Below are positions 1-10,118 of a stretch of DNA of 64,000 nt, in pieces. The stretch comes from an uncultured Duodenibacillus sp. (lineage in GTDB: Bacteria > Pseudomonadota > Gammaproteobacteria > Burkholderiales > Burkholderiaceae_F), in the NCBI GenBank assembly GCA_944390715.1, contig CALXQS010000001.1, forward strand, positions 124,001-188,000, given 5' to 3'. Numbering within the stretch: position 1 is the stretch's first letter; each line of letters starts with the position of its first letter. The notes beneath the pieces are model-generated. The model searched no databases. It saw only the letters and a list, made by a program, of their open reading frames with translations, and was not told the origin of the DNA. A program made the position numbers and the translations under genes.

Positions 1-1050
1 AGCAAGACAGGACTTTTGCCGTACCTAACCTTTGAGAATATGGTTGAAGGTCAGGCCAATCAGATGGCATATGCCTCTGGTCTGCAGGTAGCTTCGAGTC
101 CGAAATCCATCTACAACCCTCTTTTCATTTATGGAGGAGTAGGTCTAGGCAAGACTCACCTGATGCACGCCATCGGCAATCGTTTTCTGGCCAATAACCC
201 AAAAGCAAAAATTCTCTGCATATCTGCTCAGCAGTACGTGCAGGAATTTATGGATGTCATGCGCCTGCGCAACCTCAACAACGAAAGATTTTCTGAAGCA
301 ATGCGGCAGTTTGAGGCTCGTTACCGAGGGCTGGATCTTTTGTTGATTGATGATATCCAAAGCTTTGGCGGTCGTGACGGCACGCAAACCAACTTCTTTC
401 TAGCCTTTGAGAACATGGTGCCGCATGGCAAGCAGATCGTGCTCACCAGCGATACTTATCCAAGAAATCTGAAAGAGTTCCAGGAACGCCTCCTGAGCCG
501 CTTAACTCAGGGATTGATTGTGACGGTTGAGCCGCCGGAATTCGACATGCGCGTTCAGATTCTCTTGCAGAAAGCCGAACGTTCTGGTTTAGACATGCCT
601 CGCGAAGTAGCTGAAATCATTGCCAAGAAGCTCAAAAGCAACGTCAGAGAACTTGAAGGTGCTGTTCAGCAAGTTCTGGCCTACACGCGATTTCATCAAG
701 TCGATGTCACCATTGACACTGTCAAGCTTGCTTTAAGAGACATCTTCAAAGCAAGCAGCGTTCCCGTGACGATAGAGGCAATTCAGCAAACTGTTGCCCA
801 GCACTACGGTTTTAAAGTAGCTGAACTCAGTTCAAAATCCAGAAAAGCAAAGCTGGTGAGGGCGCGACAGGTTGCCATCTACCTTGCGCGTGAACTGACC
901 AAAAAAAGCCTCCCTGAACTTGGTGAGCTCTTTGGCGGACGTGATCATGCCACGGTTATCTACGCGTGCAAAAAAATAGCATCTGAACGAAACACGGATG
1001 AAGAGCTCAAATACGATCTGCATCTGTTGGAGCAGAAGATCAAAAGCTAG
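1..1050 (+). CDS. dnaA: Chromosomal replication initiator DnaA (5' partial)
   Basis: AAA+ ATPase that binds DnaA boxes, melts the origin and helps load the replicative helicase. The reading frame is open from base 1, so the true start lies upstream of the window; about 349 residues remain (domains III and IV), and domains I/II are missing. Visible are the Walker A loop GGVGLGKTH near base 135-160, Walker B LLLIDDIQ near 340-360, the sensor/arginine-finger stretch QERLLSRL near 480, and the DNA-binding signature GGRDHATVIYACKK near 935-980. The TTG at base 16 is only an internal codon, not a start. It is followed by dnaN and gyrB, the usual replication gene order. Identification is essentially certain. 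Confidence 0.97.
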   Translation, partial: SKTGLLPYLTFENMVEGQANQMAYASGLQVASSPKSIYNPLFIYGGVGLGKTHLMHAIGNRFLANNPKAKILCISAQQYVQEFMDVMRLRNLNNERFSEAMRQFEARYRGLDLLLIDDIQSFGGRDGTQTNFFLAFENMVPHGKQIVLTSDTYPRNLKEFQERLLSRLTQGLIVTVEPPEFDMRVQILLQKAERSGLDMPREVAEIIAKKLKSNVRELEGAVQQVLAYTRFHQVDVTIDTVKLALRDIFKASSVPVTIEAIQQTVAQHYGFKVAELSSKSRKAKLVRARQVAIYLARELTKKSLPELGELFGGRDHATVIYACKKIASERNTDEELKYDLHLLEQKIKS

Positions 1051-1119
1051 AAAAATCAACGGCATCCAAGTACTTTTTAGAACTACAGAAGCCGTCATTT
1101 TCCATTAAAATCCACAGAC

Positions 1120-1142
1120 GGGCCGAAATTGAGCTTCGGCCC
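1120..1142 (+). terminator. Hairpin between dnaA and dnaN
   Basis: GGGCCGAA (1120-1127) and TTCGGCCC (1135-1142) form a perfect 8-bp stem with a 7-nt loop, followed by ATATTTTG. It lies 29 nt before the dnaN start. It could be a weak terminator or attenuator that sets the dnaA/dnaN ratio; the U-tract is poor, so read-through is expected. Confidence 0.5.
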
Positions 1143-1171
1143 ATATTTTGATTACGAAAAAGGTTGATTTC

Positions 1172-2287
1172 ATGCAGTTCATCAAATGCACGCGCGAGGC
1201 GCTCCTCAAGCCCCTGCAGATCGTTGGAGGCATCGTTGAAGGCCGCCAGACGCTTCCCATCCTGTCCAATATCCTCATTAATGCAAACGGCAGCGAAGTC
1301 AACTTCACAACAACCGACCTAGAAATTCAAATCCGCACCAGCGGTCAGGTCGGCATTGGTTCGGAAACTGTTTCCGCGACTGTTCCTGCGGCCAAGCTTA
1401 TTGCCCTGTTGACGGCATTGCCAAATGCCAATACGGAAGTGACGATGCTCACGGAAGGCAAGAAGGTCGTCCTGCGAGCCAACAACTCGCGCTACACGCT
1501 CTCTCAGATGGCAGCTGAAGAGTACCCTGTACTGCCTATGGCAGAAGTTGAGCATACTTTCACGCTGCCTGCGAATACCTTCAAGCACCTCATGCAGATG
1601 GTGCATTTTTCGATGGCTCAGCAAGACATCCGCTATTACTTGAACGGCATGCTCCTTTCCATTGACAACGGAATGGTTAGGACCGTTGCTACCGACGGCC
1701 ATCGACTGGCTTGCTGCGACGCATCCATTGAACTCAATCTTGAACTCGATAAGCCTATAGAAGCCATCCTTCCGCGTAAAACAGTGCATCAGCTCATCAA
1801 ATTGCTGCCCGATACTGATGAGCCTGTGCAAGTAGAGCTATGCAAAACTCAAGCTCGCTTTACCTTTGGAGCAATTGAGTTTTTGAGCAAGCTCGTCGAT
1901 GGCAAATATCCTGACTACAACAGAGTCATTCCGCAGGGCAACGATAAGATTTTCGTGACCAACCGTGAACAACTGATCGGCGCTCTCAAGCGTGCGGCCA
2001 TTCTTGCCAATGAAAAATTCAAAGGCCTTCGCTGGCTGATTACGCCTGGCAAGCTTCAGATTCAAAGTGCAAACTCCGAAATGGAAGAAGCTGTTGAGGA
2101 AATCGATATCAACTACGACGGAGAAGAACTTGATTTGGGCTTCAATGTGGTCTATTTGCTAGATGTACTCGGCAATCTGAAGAACACTGACGTGCGCTTT
2201 GCTTTTGCAAATAACCAAGGTGCTACTCTTCTGACAATGCCTGAGAGTGAGCAATTCCGCTACGTTCTCATGCCGATGCGCATCTGA
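1172..2287 (+). CDS. dnaN: DNA polymerase III beta sliding clamp
   Basis: Ring-shaped dimeric clamp that tethers DNA polymerase III to its template. The 371-residue product has the usual length and three repeated clamp domains, with the family features GRQTLPILSNIL near the N terminus, ATDGHRLA in the middle, and the C-terminal YVLMPMRI. I chose ATG 1172 because AAAAAGG at 1157-1163 gives an 8-nt spacing and the protein then begins MQFIKCTREALLKPLQ; the upstream in-frame TTG at 1148 lacks a ribosome site. It lies between dnaA and gyrB on the same strand. Confidence 0.97.
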   Translation: MQFIKCTREALLKPLQIVGGIVEGRQTLPILSNILINANGSEVNFTTTDLEIQIRTSGQVGIGSETVSATVPAAKLIALLTALPNANTEVTMLTEGKKVVLRANNSRYTLSQMAAEEYPVLPMAEVEHTFTLPANTFKHLMQMVHFSMAQQDIRYYLNGMLLSIDNGMVRTVATDGHRLACCDASIELNLELDKPIEAILPRKTVHQLIKLLPDTDEPVQVELCKTQARFTFGAIEFLSKLVDGKYPDYNRVIPQGNDKIFVTNREQLIGALKRAAILANEKFKGLRWLITPGKLQIQSANSEMEEAVEEIDINYDGEELDLGFNVVYLLDVLGNLKNTDVRFAFANNQGATLLTMPESEQFRYVLMPMRI

Positions 2288-2337
2288 TGCGCAAGCCTGC
2301 CCAGCAGGTCTGCTCCATAGCCCAAAGCTACTCGTCG

Positions 2338-2368
2338 CGCCAATGCCGGGAACAGCCTGGCATTGGCG
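2338..2368 (+). terminator. 10-bp hairpin between dnaN and gyrB
   Basis: CGCCAATGCC (2338-2347) pairs perfectly with GGCATTGGCG (2359-2368) across an 11-nt loop. No run of T follows, so it is not a textbook intrinsic terminator. It lies 40 nt before the gyrB start and may modulate read-through, mRNA stability or gyrB translation. Confidence 0.5.
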
Positions 2369-2402
2369 TCAGGCTTTCAAATGGGCGAAAGATGATTTTT
2401 GA

Positions 2403-4988
<2,586 letters not shown>

Positions 4989-5003
4989 CATTCATCATTA
5001 AGG

Positions 5004-5030
5004 GCTCGGCCGCAAGACCGAGCTTTTTTT
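5004..5030 (+). terminator. Intrinsic terminator after gyrB
   Basis: GCTCGG (5004-5009) and CCGAGC (5018-5023) form a GC-rich stem followed by seven T (5024-5030). The T-run ends only 13 nt before the ATG of the next gene, so that gene has almost no leader downstream of the terminator. Confidence 0.85.
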
Positions 5031-5043
5031 GAAATTTTGGCTT

Positions 5044-5979
5044 ATGAAGACTACAGACAATCAACTCGTTGTTGCAGTCAGCTCTCGGGCGCTTTTTGAC
5101 TTGGAAGAAGAACACCAAATCTTTGAATCGCACGGCATTGCAGCGTACCGCCGGTATCAAATCGAAAACCGTGATACTCCTTTGCGTCCTGGAGTTGCTT
5201 TTTCCTTTGTTGCCCGCCTTTTAAAGCTCAATGAACTTTTCCCTGGACAGGAACCCTTCCGGGTGGTTGTGCTGAGCCGCAACTCTCCCGAAACAGGACA
5301 GCGTTTCTTCTCGTCCTGTCAATACTATGAGCTTCCTATTAAAGCCGGAGCATTTACTTCTGGACAATCTACGTTTCCCTACATTGAAGCTTTTGATGCC
5401 TCGCTGTTCTTGAGTGCCAATAAGGACAACGTCACGAAAGCCATTAGAAATGGACACCCTGCAGGGCTAGTCCTGCCAGTCGATCCAAGCAGGCTGCACG
5501 AAGATGATGATGATGGCGAACTTCGCATTGCATTTGACTTTGACGGTGTCGTCATTGACGATGCTGCGGAAAGAGAGTTTCAAAAGGACGGCATTGAGGG
5601 CTTTGAACGAATGGAAATAAGTCTCAAAGAAACTCCTCATGACCCAGGCCCTCTCAGCAAACTCTTTCAGAAACTTGCACAATTTCAAGCTCTGGATGCT
5701 AAACGTGGAGAACACGATCCGTATTACAAGCCGGCACTGAGAGTGTCCATCGTCACTGCTAGAGGCTCAGCCTGTGTAGAACGGCTTATAACAACGCTTA
5801 AAGCTTTAGGCATGAGCGCTGCCGAGCTCTTTCTAATGGACGGCCTGCCGAAAAATCGAGTGCTCGAAGTAATGCGTCCTCATATCTTTTTTGATGATCA
5901 AATCACGCATCTGGAAAAGACTGCCAACACCATCCCAAGCGTCCTCGTGCCATTTGGCATCAACAACCTTCCGCAATAG
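5044..5979 (+). CDS. Cytosolic 5'-nucleotidase family protein (PF06189-like)
   Basis: Probable nucleotidase removing the 5'-phosphate from nucleoside monophosphates in the cytoplasm. The 311-residue product looks like the NT5C1-type bacterial family: an N-terminal VAVSSRALFDLEEEH segment, the HAD-like nucleophile motif FDFDGVVIDD at about residues 165-174, and a late FFDDQITHLE acidic motif that would complete the metal site. ATG 5044 is preferred over TTG 5029, which lies inside the T-run of the gyrB terminator. No good Shine-Dalgarno is visible, so it may rely on read-through from gyrB. Substrate specificity cannot be read from the sequence. Confidence 0.8.
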   Translation: MKTTDNQLVVAVSSRALFDLEEEHQIFESHGIAAYRRYQIENRDTPLRPGVAFSFVARLLKLNELFPGQEPFRVVVLSRNSPETGQRFFSSCQYYELPIKAGAFTSGQSTFPYIEAFDASLFLSANKDNVTKAIRNGHPAGLVLPVDPSRLHEDDDDGELRIAFDFDGVVIDDAAEREFQKDGIEGFERMEISLKETPHDPGPLSKLFQKLAQFQALDAKRGEHDPYYKPALRVSIVTARGSACVERLITTLKALGMSAAELFLMDGLPKNRVLEVMRPHIFFDDQITHLEKTANTIPSVLVPFGINNLPQ

Positions 5980-5980
5980 A

Positions 5981-6012
5981 AAAAAACGGGCGGTCAGTCA
6001 GAAGGACCGCCC
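5981..6012 (-). terminator. Minus-oriented intrinsic terminator
   Basis: GGGCGGTC (5988-5995) pairs with GACCGCCC (6005-6012) over a 9-nt loop. The A-run at 5980-5986 becomes a T-run only on the minus strand, so as drawn it stops transcription running leftward toward gyrB; no T-run follows on the plus strand. No minus-strand gene is visible to its right before 10265, so it would block antisense transcription, or act as a plain hairpin 3' of the nucleotidase mRNA. Confidence 0.6.
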
Positions 6013-6203
6013 AATCCAAACCGAAAAAACCGTGCGTCGTCCGTATGCACAGCTGCTGACAAACAAAACAACTGCAGGGCTGCTCGATCAGGTCGCCTCA
6101 AAAGGCTGGAAACATTTCGGGTGATACAATCGGAAGGCTTTCTAGACGGACTACTCGGCCCTTGATGCATCGAGTGCGCATCTGCAAAGGCCGCACCACA
6201 TAC

Positions 6204-8243
6204 ATGCCGACCTTAGATCATTTGCAGCGTTCCTTTCAATGCGGTCGTCTCGTTCTCAAAAACCGCATTACAGCAGCTCCTATCTTTACCGGACTAGAGT
6301 TCAAACCCAACCTCTCAGAACTCACCAAGTTCTACGTTCATTTGGCTGAAGATGGCGTCAGCATGGTCACCATCTGCGCTGGTTTGGTTCACTCTAGCGG
6401 TGCTCCCAGCGACAATTGGCACGTTTTCAATGAAGACATTGATGTACCACGTCACCGCGCGCTGACAAATAAGCTGCAGGAACATTCCTGCAAGGCTGTA
6501 TTGCAGCTTGTACATGCAGGATATGACGCGCAGAGCTGGCCCGCGTGGGGCCCAAACACCATTAAATTTGAAAACAGAGGCAGCATCTGGAGAGCTCCTA
6601 ATCTCGTCATCAAGAGCATCATTCGAGGCTATATAAAAACTGCTCAACTTGCTCAGAAAGCAGGATATTCGGGCGTAGAAGTACATGCTGCTGGAAGAAC
6701 GCTGCCGGCGGCATTTTTGAGCCCGGCGATAAATCACAGACGAGACATCTGGGGTGCTACTCAGCTCGCGCGCTTTAAGTTTGTTCTTGACATTGTGCGA
6801 GGTGTGCGCAAAACCATAGCCCCGAACATGACAATCGGCGTGCGATTTAACCTTATGGAACTCACGCCTCGAGGAGCTGACTGGGAAGAAATATTGAGAC
6901 TTACCCAGATGCTTCGAATTGCAGGAGCTGACTACTTATGTCCGGAATTTGGAGGACCAGAAGACCGAATTCCTACCTATTTGCATCCCACACCCAAAGA
7001 TGTCTGGCTTCCTTCTTGTCAGATCCTTGCAGAGAACACCCCCCTGGCAGTTATTTACAACGAAGATTTGGGATCCCTAGAGGATGCCGCCGAAGCTCTG
7101 GTCTCTCAAGACAATATGCTTGTTGCATTTGGTCGGCCTCTTGTTGCCGACTACCAGTTCCTGCGCAAGTCACAAGGATTGATACAGGCAGATATCCGTC
7201 CCTGGATTGAACACACGGAGTACGCCCGCATTGATGGTCTCAGACGCAAGCACACGCTGTTTTGCTTGACGGCTCCTTTTTCCTTCAACACATATCCTAA
7301 ATCTTTTGTTCCGGCCACCAAAAAGAAGCGCATCGTCGTTTTGGGCGGAGGAATCAGCGGCATTTTTTTTGCTTTAACAGCTGCACGAAGAGGGCATTTT
7401 GTTCAGTTATTTGAAAAACAGGATTTTTTAGGCGGCTCTGTTCGTTTTGTTGAAAAAATAGGACAGTCTGAAAAAATCAAGGCTTGGCTTAAGTTACTTG
7501 AAAATGATCTAAAGTTAGCAGAAGTTGAAGTGCATTTAAACGCAAAAGCAGACATTAACTATCTTATGTCTCTAAAAGGCATAGATCTTGTCGTCAATGC
7601 CACCGGATCTGAACCGGAGATACCCGATATTCCCGGCATTGATTCCTCAAATGTCGTCACTTATGAAGAATTGCTAGGCGACAATCTTCCTGTAGGCAAC
7701 CGAGTCGCTGTTTTAGGCATTAATCCAGTTTCTGTCACTGTCTGCCGCTACCTTCTGGAACAACTCGAAGAATCGGAAATGAGTGCGGAGCAGTGGAGAA
7801 AAGCTTGGGGCATTGGCGATATTCGTTACAACAAGGGAGGAGTACTGGGAGTTGTACCGGAAGTTCCGCCGCCTTTGCGACAGGTTTATTTAGTCGAATC
7901 TCAACGAGGGCAGTTTGCAAATTTAGTAAAAAAACAAACAGACCGTTGGGAACTGCAGTGGCTTTTGATGCGAGGGGCGCAAACAATGCGCGACATCAAT
8001 ATTGAGTCCATTGATAATCATGCGCTTCGAGCAAGTTACGGCGAACGTCATGAAGACCGCTATGCCGTACGTGTTGATCACGTTGTTGTCTGTTGCGGAG
8101 CTGTTCCTAACAGCGAGTTGTCACTCAGATTAGCAATGGCAGGCATTGATGTACTCAATATAGGAGCGGTCACAAGAGAAAGCGGCTATATGTCTCTTTA
8201 TGAGGCAATACATGTATCGATCGAAGCTGCTCTTGATGTGTGA
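6204..8243 (+). CDS. Old-yellow-enzyme/FadH-like flavoprotein lacking Fe-S ligands and catalytic residues
   Basis: The 679-residue product has the two-part layout of 2,4-dienoyl-CoA reductase FadH and related NADH:flavin oxidoreductases: an OYE-type TIM barrel (about 1-330) followed by an FAD/NAD(P) domain with VLGGGISG at 379-386 and a late VVCCGAVPNS. Three family hallmarks are changed. The CxxC...C...C cluster ligands expected near 335-365 are absent (a single Cys at 354). The GYL that carries the catalytic Tyr reads R-T-L at 165-167. The WHEARIP region that carries the catalytic His reads GPEDRIP, with Pro at 252. It is therefore probably not a dienoyl-CoA reductase; a non-catalytic or altered redox role is inferred. 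ATG 6204 is favoured by alignment (MPTLDHLQ); an in-frame ATG at 6165 is the alternative. Confidence 0.75.
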   Translation: MPTLDHLQRSFQCGRLVLKNRITAAPIFTGLEFKPNLSELTKFYVHLAEDGVSMVTICAGLVHSSGAPSDNWHVFNEDIDVPRHRALTNKLQEHSCKAVLQLVHAGYDAQSWPAWGPNTIKFENRGSIWRAPNLVIKSIIRGYIKTAQLAQKAGYSGVEVHAAGRTLPAAFLSPAINHRRDIWGATQLARFKFVLDIVRGVRKTIAPNMTIGVRFNLMELTPRGADWEEILRLTQMLRIAGADYLCPEFGGPEDRIPTYLHPTPKDVWLPSCQILAENTPLAVIYNEDLGSLEDAAEALVSQDNMLVAFGRPLVADYQFLRKSQGLIQADIRPWIEHTEYARIDGLRRKHTLFCLTAPFSFNTYPKSFVPATKKKRIVVLGGGISGIFFALTAARRGHFVQLFEKQDFLGGSVRFVEKIGQSEKIKAWLKLLENDLKLAEVEVHLNAKADINYLMSLKGIDLVVNATGSEPEIPDIPGIDSSNVVTYEELLGDNLPVGNRVAVLGINPVSVTVCRYLLEQLEESEMSAEQWRKAWGIGDIRYNKGGVLGVVPEVPPPLRQVYLVESQRGQFANLVKKQTDRWELQWLLMRGAQTMRDINIESIDNHALRASYGERHEDRYAVRVDHVVVCCGAVPNSELSLRLAMAGIDVLNIGAVTRESGYMSLYEAIHVSIEAALDV

Positions 8244-8650
8244 CTGTCTCCTAGCTTTCCTTGTTTTTTCTGTGTTCTTTGAACTTTTGGGACGTAAAAC
8301 GTTCTGATCTAGTTTTACCTAAAAATAAAATTTTATTGTTAGATACAGTAGTTAATAGATGTGGGAAACTCTGTGAATATCGAGTAAATTTCATTGCAAA
8401 TCAATGGTTTAGTATGTTGATAAACGTGGTGAGAAGTTTTGAGCCTGCTTGTGGATAAGTTGTGTATGAAGGTGAATAACTTGGACAGGTCGAAACCCTC
8501 AACAGAAATTTGCACAAAATGACTGAAGTTTTTAAGTGTGTTTTACACAAGTTGTTCACAGTATCCAGGAAATAGGGGCTTAGTTGGCATCGATGGCGAT
8601 TCGAAAACATCGCTAAAATCGAGCTTGTTTGGAATTTTTTCTTTTTAAAG
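8244..8650. other. Candidate replication origin (oriC): DnaA-box cluster with AT-rich element
   Basis: This 407-nt gap holds no gene. It contains one perfect DnaA box (8450-8458, minus-strand TTATCCACA) and six sites one base away from TTATNCACA: 8372-8380, 8415-8423, 8461-8469 and 8471-8479 in the same inverted orientation, and 8541-8549 and 8552-8560 in the forward orientation. The two groups point away from each other around 8480-8540. To the left is an AT-rich stretch including an 18-nt AT-only run at 8320-8337, a plausible unwinding element. By simple counting, fewer than one such site is expected in 190 bp. DnaA is encoded about 7 kb upstream. I infer an origin or at least a strong DnaA-binding region; the space upstream of dnaA lies outside the window and cannot be compared. 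Confidence 0.65.
8450..8458 (-). promoter_or_regulatory. Perfect DnaA box
   Basis: TGTGGATAA on the plus strand equals TTATCCACA on the minus strand, the canonical high-affinity DnaA box. It lies in the middle of a seven-site cluster. Confidence 0.8.
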
Positions 8651-9442
8651 ATGTCGTCAGACGATTTGTTGCCGTGGTTTTCACCCAAGTTGTCGCCTGA
8701 GGTCTCGCGCGTCATCACGAATTTAGGACGCCGAGCAGTGCTGGAAAGAGGGCAGGCGCTGAGTGCCTCATCCTTTTTCAAACGTTTGGTGTTTGTTCAG
8801 GAAGGCTTTCTTGCTCAAGGGGTGATTAATCCAGGGGGTGGCAATCCCTTCATGCTGACGCTTTCAGGGCCTAGAAGCTTTGGTGCGGCTGCTGGAGTCG
8901 TTGATGCCATGGATAATTTACCTCGACGATATTGGGCGGCCACACACTGCGAGGTGCTGACAATTATTCCTGAAATCCTCTTGAGGTTATCCGAAGTTGA
9001 CGAAAAGCTCAATCAAGAGCTCAGCAGCTACGCAATACGTCATCTCATGAGTGAACGGATGGGGCTGATGCTTTGCCAAGCCGCTTCAGTTGAAGAAAGA
9101 GCTGGCGTTTTTATCGTCTCCAGCTTGATGGTACGTGGTAAATTCTCAGCGGGTAAAACGATAGCATCGTCTCGCTGGATTCGACTTGACGTTCTGCCTT
9201 CCAGAAAACTGACAGCGGCATTGCTGGCCGTAAAAGAGCAACAGCTCAAGGATGTTTTCCGAAACTGGATTTTGGAGGGAACGCTTCGTTTTAATGAGGG
9301 GGCGTTTGATGTCAGAAGCGATATGCTTTCACACTATTGGCGATGGATGCAGCCGTTTGTCCGCATGCATGAAAATATGCCGATAATGGTCGCTCGAGAC
9401 ACACGGCACCTTGAACATCTTGAATTGGATTTGAACCACTAA
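8651..9442 (+). CDS. Crp/Fnr-fold transcriptional regulator (divergent)
   Basis: The 263-residue product fits the Crp/Fnr architecture: an N-terminal cyclic-nucleotide-type beta barrel (about 15-125), a long dimerisation helix (about 128-150), and a C-terminal winged helix (about 195-235, with RKLTAALLAVKEQQLKDVF reading as the HTH and an LRFNEGAFDV wing). The conserved cAMP-binding RGE...RSA signature of Crp and the N-terminal Fe-S cysteines of Fnr are not present, so the ligand is unknown. ATG 8651 follows the candidate origin directly. Its closeness to the DnaA cluster could couple its expression to replication, but that is speculation. Confidence 0.6.
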   Translation: MSSDDLLPWFSPKLSPEVSRVITNLGRRAVLERGQALSASSFFKRLVFVQEGFLAQGVINPGGGNPFMLTLSGPRSFGAAAGVVDAMDNLPRRYWAATHCEVLTIIPEILLRLSEVDEKLNQELSSYAIRHLMSERMGLMLCQAASVEERAGVFIVSSLMVRGKFSAGKTIASSRWIRLDVLPSRKLTAALLAVKEQQLKDVFRNWILEGTLRFNEGAFDVRSDMLSHYWRWMQPFVRMHENMPIMVARDTRHLEHLELDLNH

Positions 9443-9455
9443 GAGAGCAATAAAA

Positions 9456-10118
9456 ATGAGAAAACAAGCAATAGCTGCTTTGATCGGCATCGTTGGTGCC
9501 GTTTTTATCACAAGCGGGTGCGCACCTTTGATTGTGGGTGGAGCTGCTGTGACTGCCGGAGCCACCGTCTCAACAATGACAGATCGCCGTTCAGCCGGTG
9601 CTGTAGTCAATGACACAGTACTTGAAAAGCGCGTTGCTTGGGAAATTTCTCAAGCACTGGGCAAGAGCATTGATTCCCATATCACGGTGACCGCGTATAA
9701 CGGCAAAGTTTTGCTGACAGGTGAAGTGGCCTCTGAGCAGGGACGGGAAATTGCGCAACGCACGGCCTCTCAGAGTCTCGATGTGGCTTCTGTTGTCAAT
9801 GAGCTTGCTGTACTTGAAAACGCAGGCATGATGCAGCGCATGAGTGATTCTTCTCTCGCGACTAAGGTGCGTTCCCGTTTAGTTGGTACTGAGGATGTTT
9901 ATCTAAGCCAAATGAAGGTGGTAGTCGAGCGCGGTGTCGTTTATCTTATGGGTATTGTTACTCCGCAGGAAAACGATCTTGCGCTGGCTGTTGCCGCTCG
10001 CACCAGCGGCGTCATGAAGGTGATTAGCGTCTGCGACGTCATGAGCGCAGAAAGAATTGCCCAGCGTCTGCGAGACATTCAGGTAGAAAATGCAGCCGCA
10101 CAAACGGCGCCTCAATGA
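9456..10118 (+). CDS. dolP: BON-domain outer-membrane lipoprotein, DolP (YraP)-like
   Basis: The 220-residue product has a lipoprotein signal peptide with lipobox ITSGC (Cys21), a short glycine/alanine linker, and two BON domains (about 50-118 and 128-198), the layout of DolP/YraP, which supports outer-membrane integrity in the periplasm. A TDRRSAG segment typical of this family precedes the first BON domain. It starts 13 nt after the Crp/Fnr-like gene on the same strand and may be co-transcribed with it. A bidirectional terminator follows. Confidence 0.85.
   Translation: MRKQAIAALIGIVGAVFITSGCAPLIVGGAAVTAGATVSTMTDRRSAGAVVNDTVLEKRVAWEISQALGKSIDSHITVTAYNGKVLLTGEVASEQGREIAQRTASQSLDVASVVNELAVLENAGMMQRMSDSSLATKVRSRLVGTEDVYLSQMKVVVERGVVYLMGIVTPQENDLALAVAARTSGVMKVISVCDVMSAERIAQRLRDIQVENAAAQTAPQ

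Follow-up and report, generated by a model that had tools for sequence, protein, structure and literature searches.

Our in silico analysis identified, with high confidence, the intergenic gap at 8244–8650 as the chromosomal replication origin (oriC) of the genome containing the window, the 64,000-nt stretch of DNA analysed here (bases 124001–188000 of a 203,124-bp contig from a 46-contig, 2.21-Mb draft genome). Among named entries of a genome collection, this gut bacterium is most closely related to uncultured Duodenibacillus (Sutterellaceae, Burkholderiales). Bacterial origins usually flank dnaA. In this genome oriC very probably lies about 8 kb past dnaA, an unusual place that is common to related genera, and is made of standard parts. 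The initial annotation had proposed this gap as a candidate oriC, and we found that box clustering, the position of the GC-skew minimum and conservation in relatives support the proposal. The gap combines the features by which a DnaA-dependent bacterial oriC is recognized: a non-coding cluster of DnaA boxes, an adjoining AT-rich element, a skew switch and conservation. The surrounding genes are:

1–1050, plus strand: 3' part of dnaA (ORF), whose start is 315 bp before the window
1172–2287, plus strand: dnaN (ORF, synteny)
2409–4988, plus strand: gyrB (ORF, synteny, tree)
5044–5979, plus strand: 5'-nucleotidase family gene (Pfam PF06189, E 2e-109)
6204–8243, plus strand: OYE-like FMN oxidoreductase gene, the left neighbour of the gap (Pfam PF00724), absent from this place in several relatives
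8651–9442, plus strand: distant Crp/Fnr-like regulator, the right neighbour (weak Crp/FNR fold match), origin-linked in three genera
9456–10118, plus strand: BON-domain lipoprotein gene (Pfam PF04972), the gene found most constantly beside the origin in different genera

The Crp/Fnr name that the right neighbour received in the initial annotation is plausible but weak: the gene at 8651–9442 has no Pfam or NCBIfam match, and what speaks for the name is a low-confidence model of its product, in which the C-terminal part resembles the Crp/FNR winged helix.

The gap has a G+C content of 35%, against 52% for the 64-kb window, and contains seven DnaA boxes within 189 bp, one perfect and six with one mismatch. 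A scan of the window recovered all seven at the place first reported, in two oppositely oriented groups, and the accompanying A/T-only run at 8320–8337 is exact. The elements of the gap are:

8244–8650: intergenic gap with the proposed oriC, on the basis of box count, G+C content and conservation in nine genomes of the genus
8320–8337: A/T-only tract TAAAAATAAAATTTTATT, proposed core of the DNA unwinding element; the same place is AT-rich in most relatives
8341–8359, plus strand: TAG-rich, DnaA-trio-like stretch, degenerate here (AGATACAGTAGTTAATAGA); the genus consensus is AGTAGnTAGTAGA, beside box A
8360–8368, minus strand: degenerate DnaA box A (TTTCCCACA), with two mismatches, abutting the trios; its TGTG core is near-invariant in nine genomes
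8372–8380, minus strand: DnaA box 1 (ATATTCACA), 0–2 mismatches in nine of nine genus genomes
8399–8411, plus strand: IHF-consensus site WATCAANNNNTTR (AATCAATGGTTTA), a perfect consensus between boxes 1 and 2
8415–8423, minus strand: DnaA box 2 (TTATCAACA), 0–2 mismatches in nine of nine genus genomes
8450–8458, minus strand: DnaA box 3, perfect (TTATCCACA); relatives vary, with 0–4 mismatches
8461–8469, minus strand: DnaA box 4 (TCATACACA), from the one-mismatch scan and genus alignment
8471–8479, minus strand: DnaA box 5 (TTATTCACC), from the one-mismatch scan and genus alignment
8541–8549, plus strand: convergent DnaA box 6 (TTTTACACA), from the one-mismatch scan and genus alignment
8552–8560, plus strand: convergent DnaA box 7 (TTGTTCACA), 0 mismatches in six of nine genus genomes

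Dinucleotide shuffles of the 407-bp gap contained a mean of 0.59 one-mismatch sites and a maximum of 5, and none of 5,000 shuffles reached 7. Over the whole window we counted 33 one-mismatch boxes against 34 expected, so it is their clustering, not their number, that stands out. Outside the cluster, the most that any 190 bp of the window contains is two boxes, and the most in any 300 bp of the 203-kb contig is three.

Next to the boxes, the TAG repeats match the definition of DnaA-trios, 3'-GAT-5' beside a DnaA box (PMC8287927), in orientation and place in the genus alignment. A basal unwinding system (BUS) is defined by at least three DnaA-trios no more than 16 bp from a DnaA box. The repeats in the window are degenerate and score no better than chance against shuffles (p = 0.49); about nine relatives gave p values of 0.006–0.03, which are not independent because the genomes are related. 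The IHF consensus has four matches in the 64 kb compared with 2.1 expected, and most genomes of the genus fit it with no more than one mismatch at the position aligned with the site in the gap. A search of the genome for IHF genes returned HU/IHF-family matches that were all under the himA cut-off. Folding the AT region as single-stranded DNA revealed nothing unusual (z = -0.2).

Alignment of nine genus genomes showed that the order of the parts is kept: AT tract, TAG repeats, boxes A and 1, IHF-like site, box 2, boxes 3–5 and the convergent pair. Conservation is highest in boxes 1, 2 and 7 and in the core of box A, and boxes 3–5 vary. Loss of the boxes in close relatives had been named in advance as evidence against the candidate; we found the cluster retained at the same place, with single boxes diverging. 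The pattern TAGATGTGGGAAACTCTG proved too specific for tracing the origin past the closest genomes. These comparisons bear on whether the boxes might have no part in replication and instead serve as operators for the Crp/Fnr-like gene next to them, or belong to a promoter under DnaA control. In favour of this, the gap lies directly upstream of that gene, which is linked to the origin in three genera. The cluster nevertheless stays in five genomes that do not have the gene (G019, G059, G060, G009 and G008), where the BON gene alone follows, and such a function leaves unexplained both the skew break described below and the AT tract with its trio-like repeats. We therefore give this explanation next to no probability.

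To locate the skew switch, we computed GC skew over the full 203-kb contig and over stretches of relatives. The cumulative skew of the contig forms a single V, falling for 131 kb until window position 7319, where it reaches its minimum 1.1 kb short of the box cluster, and then rising to the contig end. The initial annotation had held that a skew minimum and coverage peak elsewhere, for example upstream of dnaA, would count against its candidate; the skew minimum is at the candidate. A two-segment fit placed the break at contig position 131337 (window 7337), with the perfect box 1.1 kb to its right. Compared with this best break, the fit worsens by 8.5 log units if the break is set at the boxes, by 21.8 if it is in the dnaA–dnaN gap and by 23.6 if it is in the rpmH–dnaA gap, so that the boxes fit about 15 log units better than the rpmH–dnaA gap. 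Because the best break falls inside the oxidoreductase gene, we infer that local coding bias probably shifts it off the boxes. Gene orientation was uninformative as a measure of strand bias, with 53% and 51% of genes on the plus strand on either side.

Neither gap flanking dnaA in this genome contains the box cluster that defines a dnaA-adjacent oriC. The dnaA–dnaN gap has no DnaA boxes in the window scan, as the initial annotation had noted in finding no comparable sites there. The rpmH–dnaA gap, just outside the window, has one box with one mismatch, and no box was found in the same gap of G017 and G015. Many relatives, indeed most, keep one perfect box before dnaA. A single box in this position would fit dnaA autoregulation, a function inferred from its place. 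Five parS-like sites at contig C1:116485–118489 are the sole ones in the genome (a control pattern gave 0 matches); they lie upstream of dnaA, 14–16 kb from the box cluster and 5.5–7.5 kb before the window. This parS cluster marks the region as origin-proximal and favours neither side of dnaA.

We considered whether the true oriC might be the rpmH–dnaA gap, about 9 kb to the left, with the cluster acting, in the manner of datA or DARS, as an accessory DnaA-binding site for titration or reactivation of DnaA. The perfect box retained by most relatives and a real cluster in that gap in several genomes of genus g16 would agree with this. The lone mismatched box in the genome of the window does not. 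For six contigs or regions, moreover, a skew break in the rpmH–dnaA gap scored 15–58 log units below the best break, and for G057 it scored 13 below. The most direct comparison came from two rearranged genomes, G013 and G015, in which the BON gene has the opposite orientation with respect to dnaA and is preceded by menA, and the box cluster lies beyond both, 11–12 kb past dnaA and not directly after the oxidoreductase gene. In these genomes the skew minimum has moved away from dnaA together with the boxes: it is within about 70 bp of the midpoint of the displaced cluster in G013 and 77 bp away in G015 (221 bp by the fit). Placing the break at the old gap position was 30 (G013) and 7 (G015) log units worse than the best fit, and placing it in the rpmH–dnaA gap was 48 and 16 log units worse. 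Of all the evidence for the boxes as markers of the origin, this tracking of the displaced boxes by the minimum is the strongest. An oriC upstream of dnaA is very improbable.

In genera g2, g14, g15, g16 and g17, too, a box cluster precedes the BON gene, in many cases separated from it by the Crp/Fnr-like gene. In g14 and g16 a local skew minimum lies near the cluster, in agreement with longer stretches of G051, G053 and G062. Sampled along the complete chromosome of G057 (g16), skew changed sign in two places only, the region from dnaA to the cluster and a point near 1.3 Mb; locally, the break that fits best in G057 lies to the left of the cluster, about 6 kb away, and is less sharp than in G051, G053 and G062. 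The 20-kb local skew minimum in g2, g15 and g17 was located away from the box cluster, which in these three genera marks no more than a candidate origin.

Several g16 genomes have a second box cluster in the rpmH–dnaA gap (L055, L054, L049 and L047, about 3570–4000; L053, about 3858–3905; oriented coordinates), which could be part of a bipartite origin, a relic or a site of dnaA autoregulation. Bipartite origins with looping occur in Helicobacter pylori and Bacillus subtilis. By analogy, boxes upstream of dnaA and those in the gap could act jointly, with the intervening DNA looped out, and five g16 genomes (G051, G054, G056, G061 and G062) do have clusters on both sides of dnaA–dnaN–gyrB. The resemblance to H. 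pylori lies in these box clusters flanking the dnaA block; the block here differs in consisting of dnaA–dnaN–gyrB and the nucleotidase gene, and the genome of the window is without an upstream cluster. Its upstream gap contains one weak box, that of G017 and G015 none, and dnaA autoregulation accounts for a lone box before dnaA. A bipartite origin thus has only a small chance of applying to the genome of the window.

A single origin in the gap suggests how initiation might proceed. The sequences themselves show which elements are present, in what order and how well conserved, as well as where the skew switches; for loading, bending, melting and fork direction we draw on known origins. DnaA-ATP would load on two sets of boxes, the tandem pair A and 1 and the array 2–5, and an IHF-type bend at 8399–8411 would join this array to the convergent pair, boxes 6 and 7. 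A DnaA filament may then run from box A along the TAG-rich strand at 8341–8359 and melt the adjoining A/T tract, where the helicase would be loaded and from which two forks would depart in opposite directions. If the origin is at 8.4 kb, the leftward fork would meet dnaA, dnaN, gyrB and the 5'-nucleotidase and OYE-like oxidoreductase genes head-on, since these five genes (window 1–8243) are on the plus strand to its left.

This layout resembles that of known origins. The Escherichia coli oriC lies beside mnmG/mioC, about 42 kb from dnaA. By layout of parts, the proposed origin is similar: it is apart from dnaA, its proposed AT-rich unwinding element adjoins the boxes, a putative IHF site falls between boxes 1 and 2, and the boxes form two groups of opposite orientation; the neighbouring genes differ. 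An oriC in another gene context is found in many bacteria, E. coli included (reviewed in PMC4285127). The arrangement of tandem boxes, 5'-TAG-3' repeats and an AT tract, in the same order and on the same strand, recalls the basal unwinding system of B. subtilis (PMC8287927) and is clear in many relatives, G051, G054 and G057 among them. The proposed origin is unlike that system in that the trios in the window are degenerate and that, in the genus, it is the weaker box that lies next to the trios, hardly any spacer intervening. For chromosome 1 of Burkholderia cenocepacia, from the same bacterial order, the origin features named are DnaA boxes, an AT-rich block and an IHF site, and the exact origin position was described as uncertain because these are dispersed (PMC4948915); the features here are compact, within 240 bp. 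We found no description of an origin of Sutterella, Parasutterella or Sutterellaceae in the open literature, although DoriC predictions may exist. The gap offers a compact, testable origin for a common group of gut bacteria. It also shows that, in rotating such genomes or estimating growth rates from peak-to-trough ratios, one should be wary of assuming that oriC is at dnaA.

How the origin came to be at this position can be addressed only tentatively. One scenario, possible though doubtful, is that an origin once next to dnaA was shifted 6–9 kb downstream in the ancestor of a Sutterella-like clade, leaving dnaA–dnaN–gyrB head-on to replication, and that some relatives with two clusters are intermediates or have true bipartite origins. 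A GyrB tree grouped g1, g2 and g14 firmly; the placement of g16, g15 and g17 and the root were uncertain. In the high-GC genera of the family (g3, g4, g6, g11, g12 and g18), boxes are few and nearly all near dnaA, and skew is noisy, so that the direction of relocation rests mainly on this uncertainly rooted tree. Related genera differ in whether their clusters precede dnaA, follow it or flank it, a series that would allow one to study how an essential origin relocates.

Separately, we observed an inverted pair of perfect DnaA boxes, 52 bp apart, on contigs C26, C18 and C8 (L138 881–941; L139 about 1691–1751; L140 about 2496–2556). The pair on C26 directly follows a short helix-turn-helix-like ORF and is perhaps part of a mobile element.
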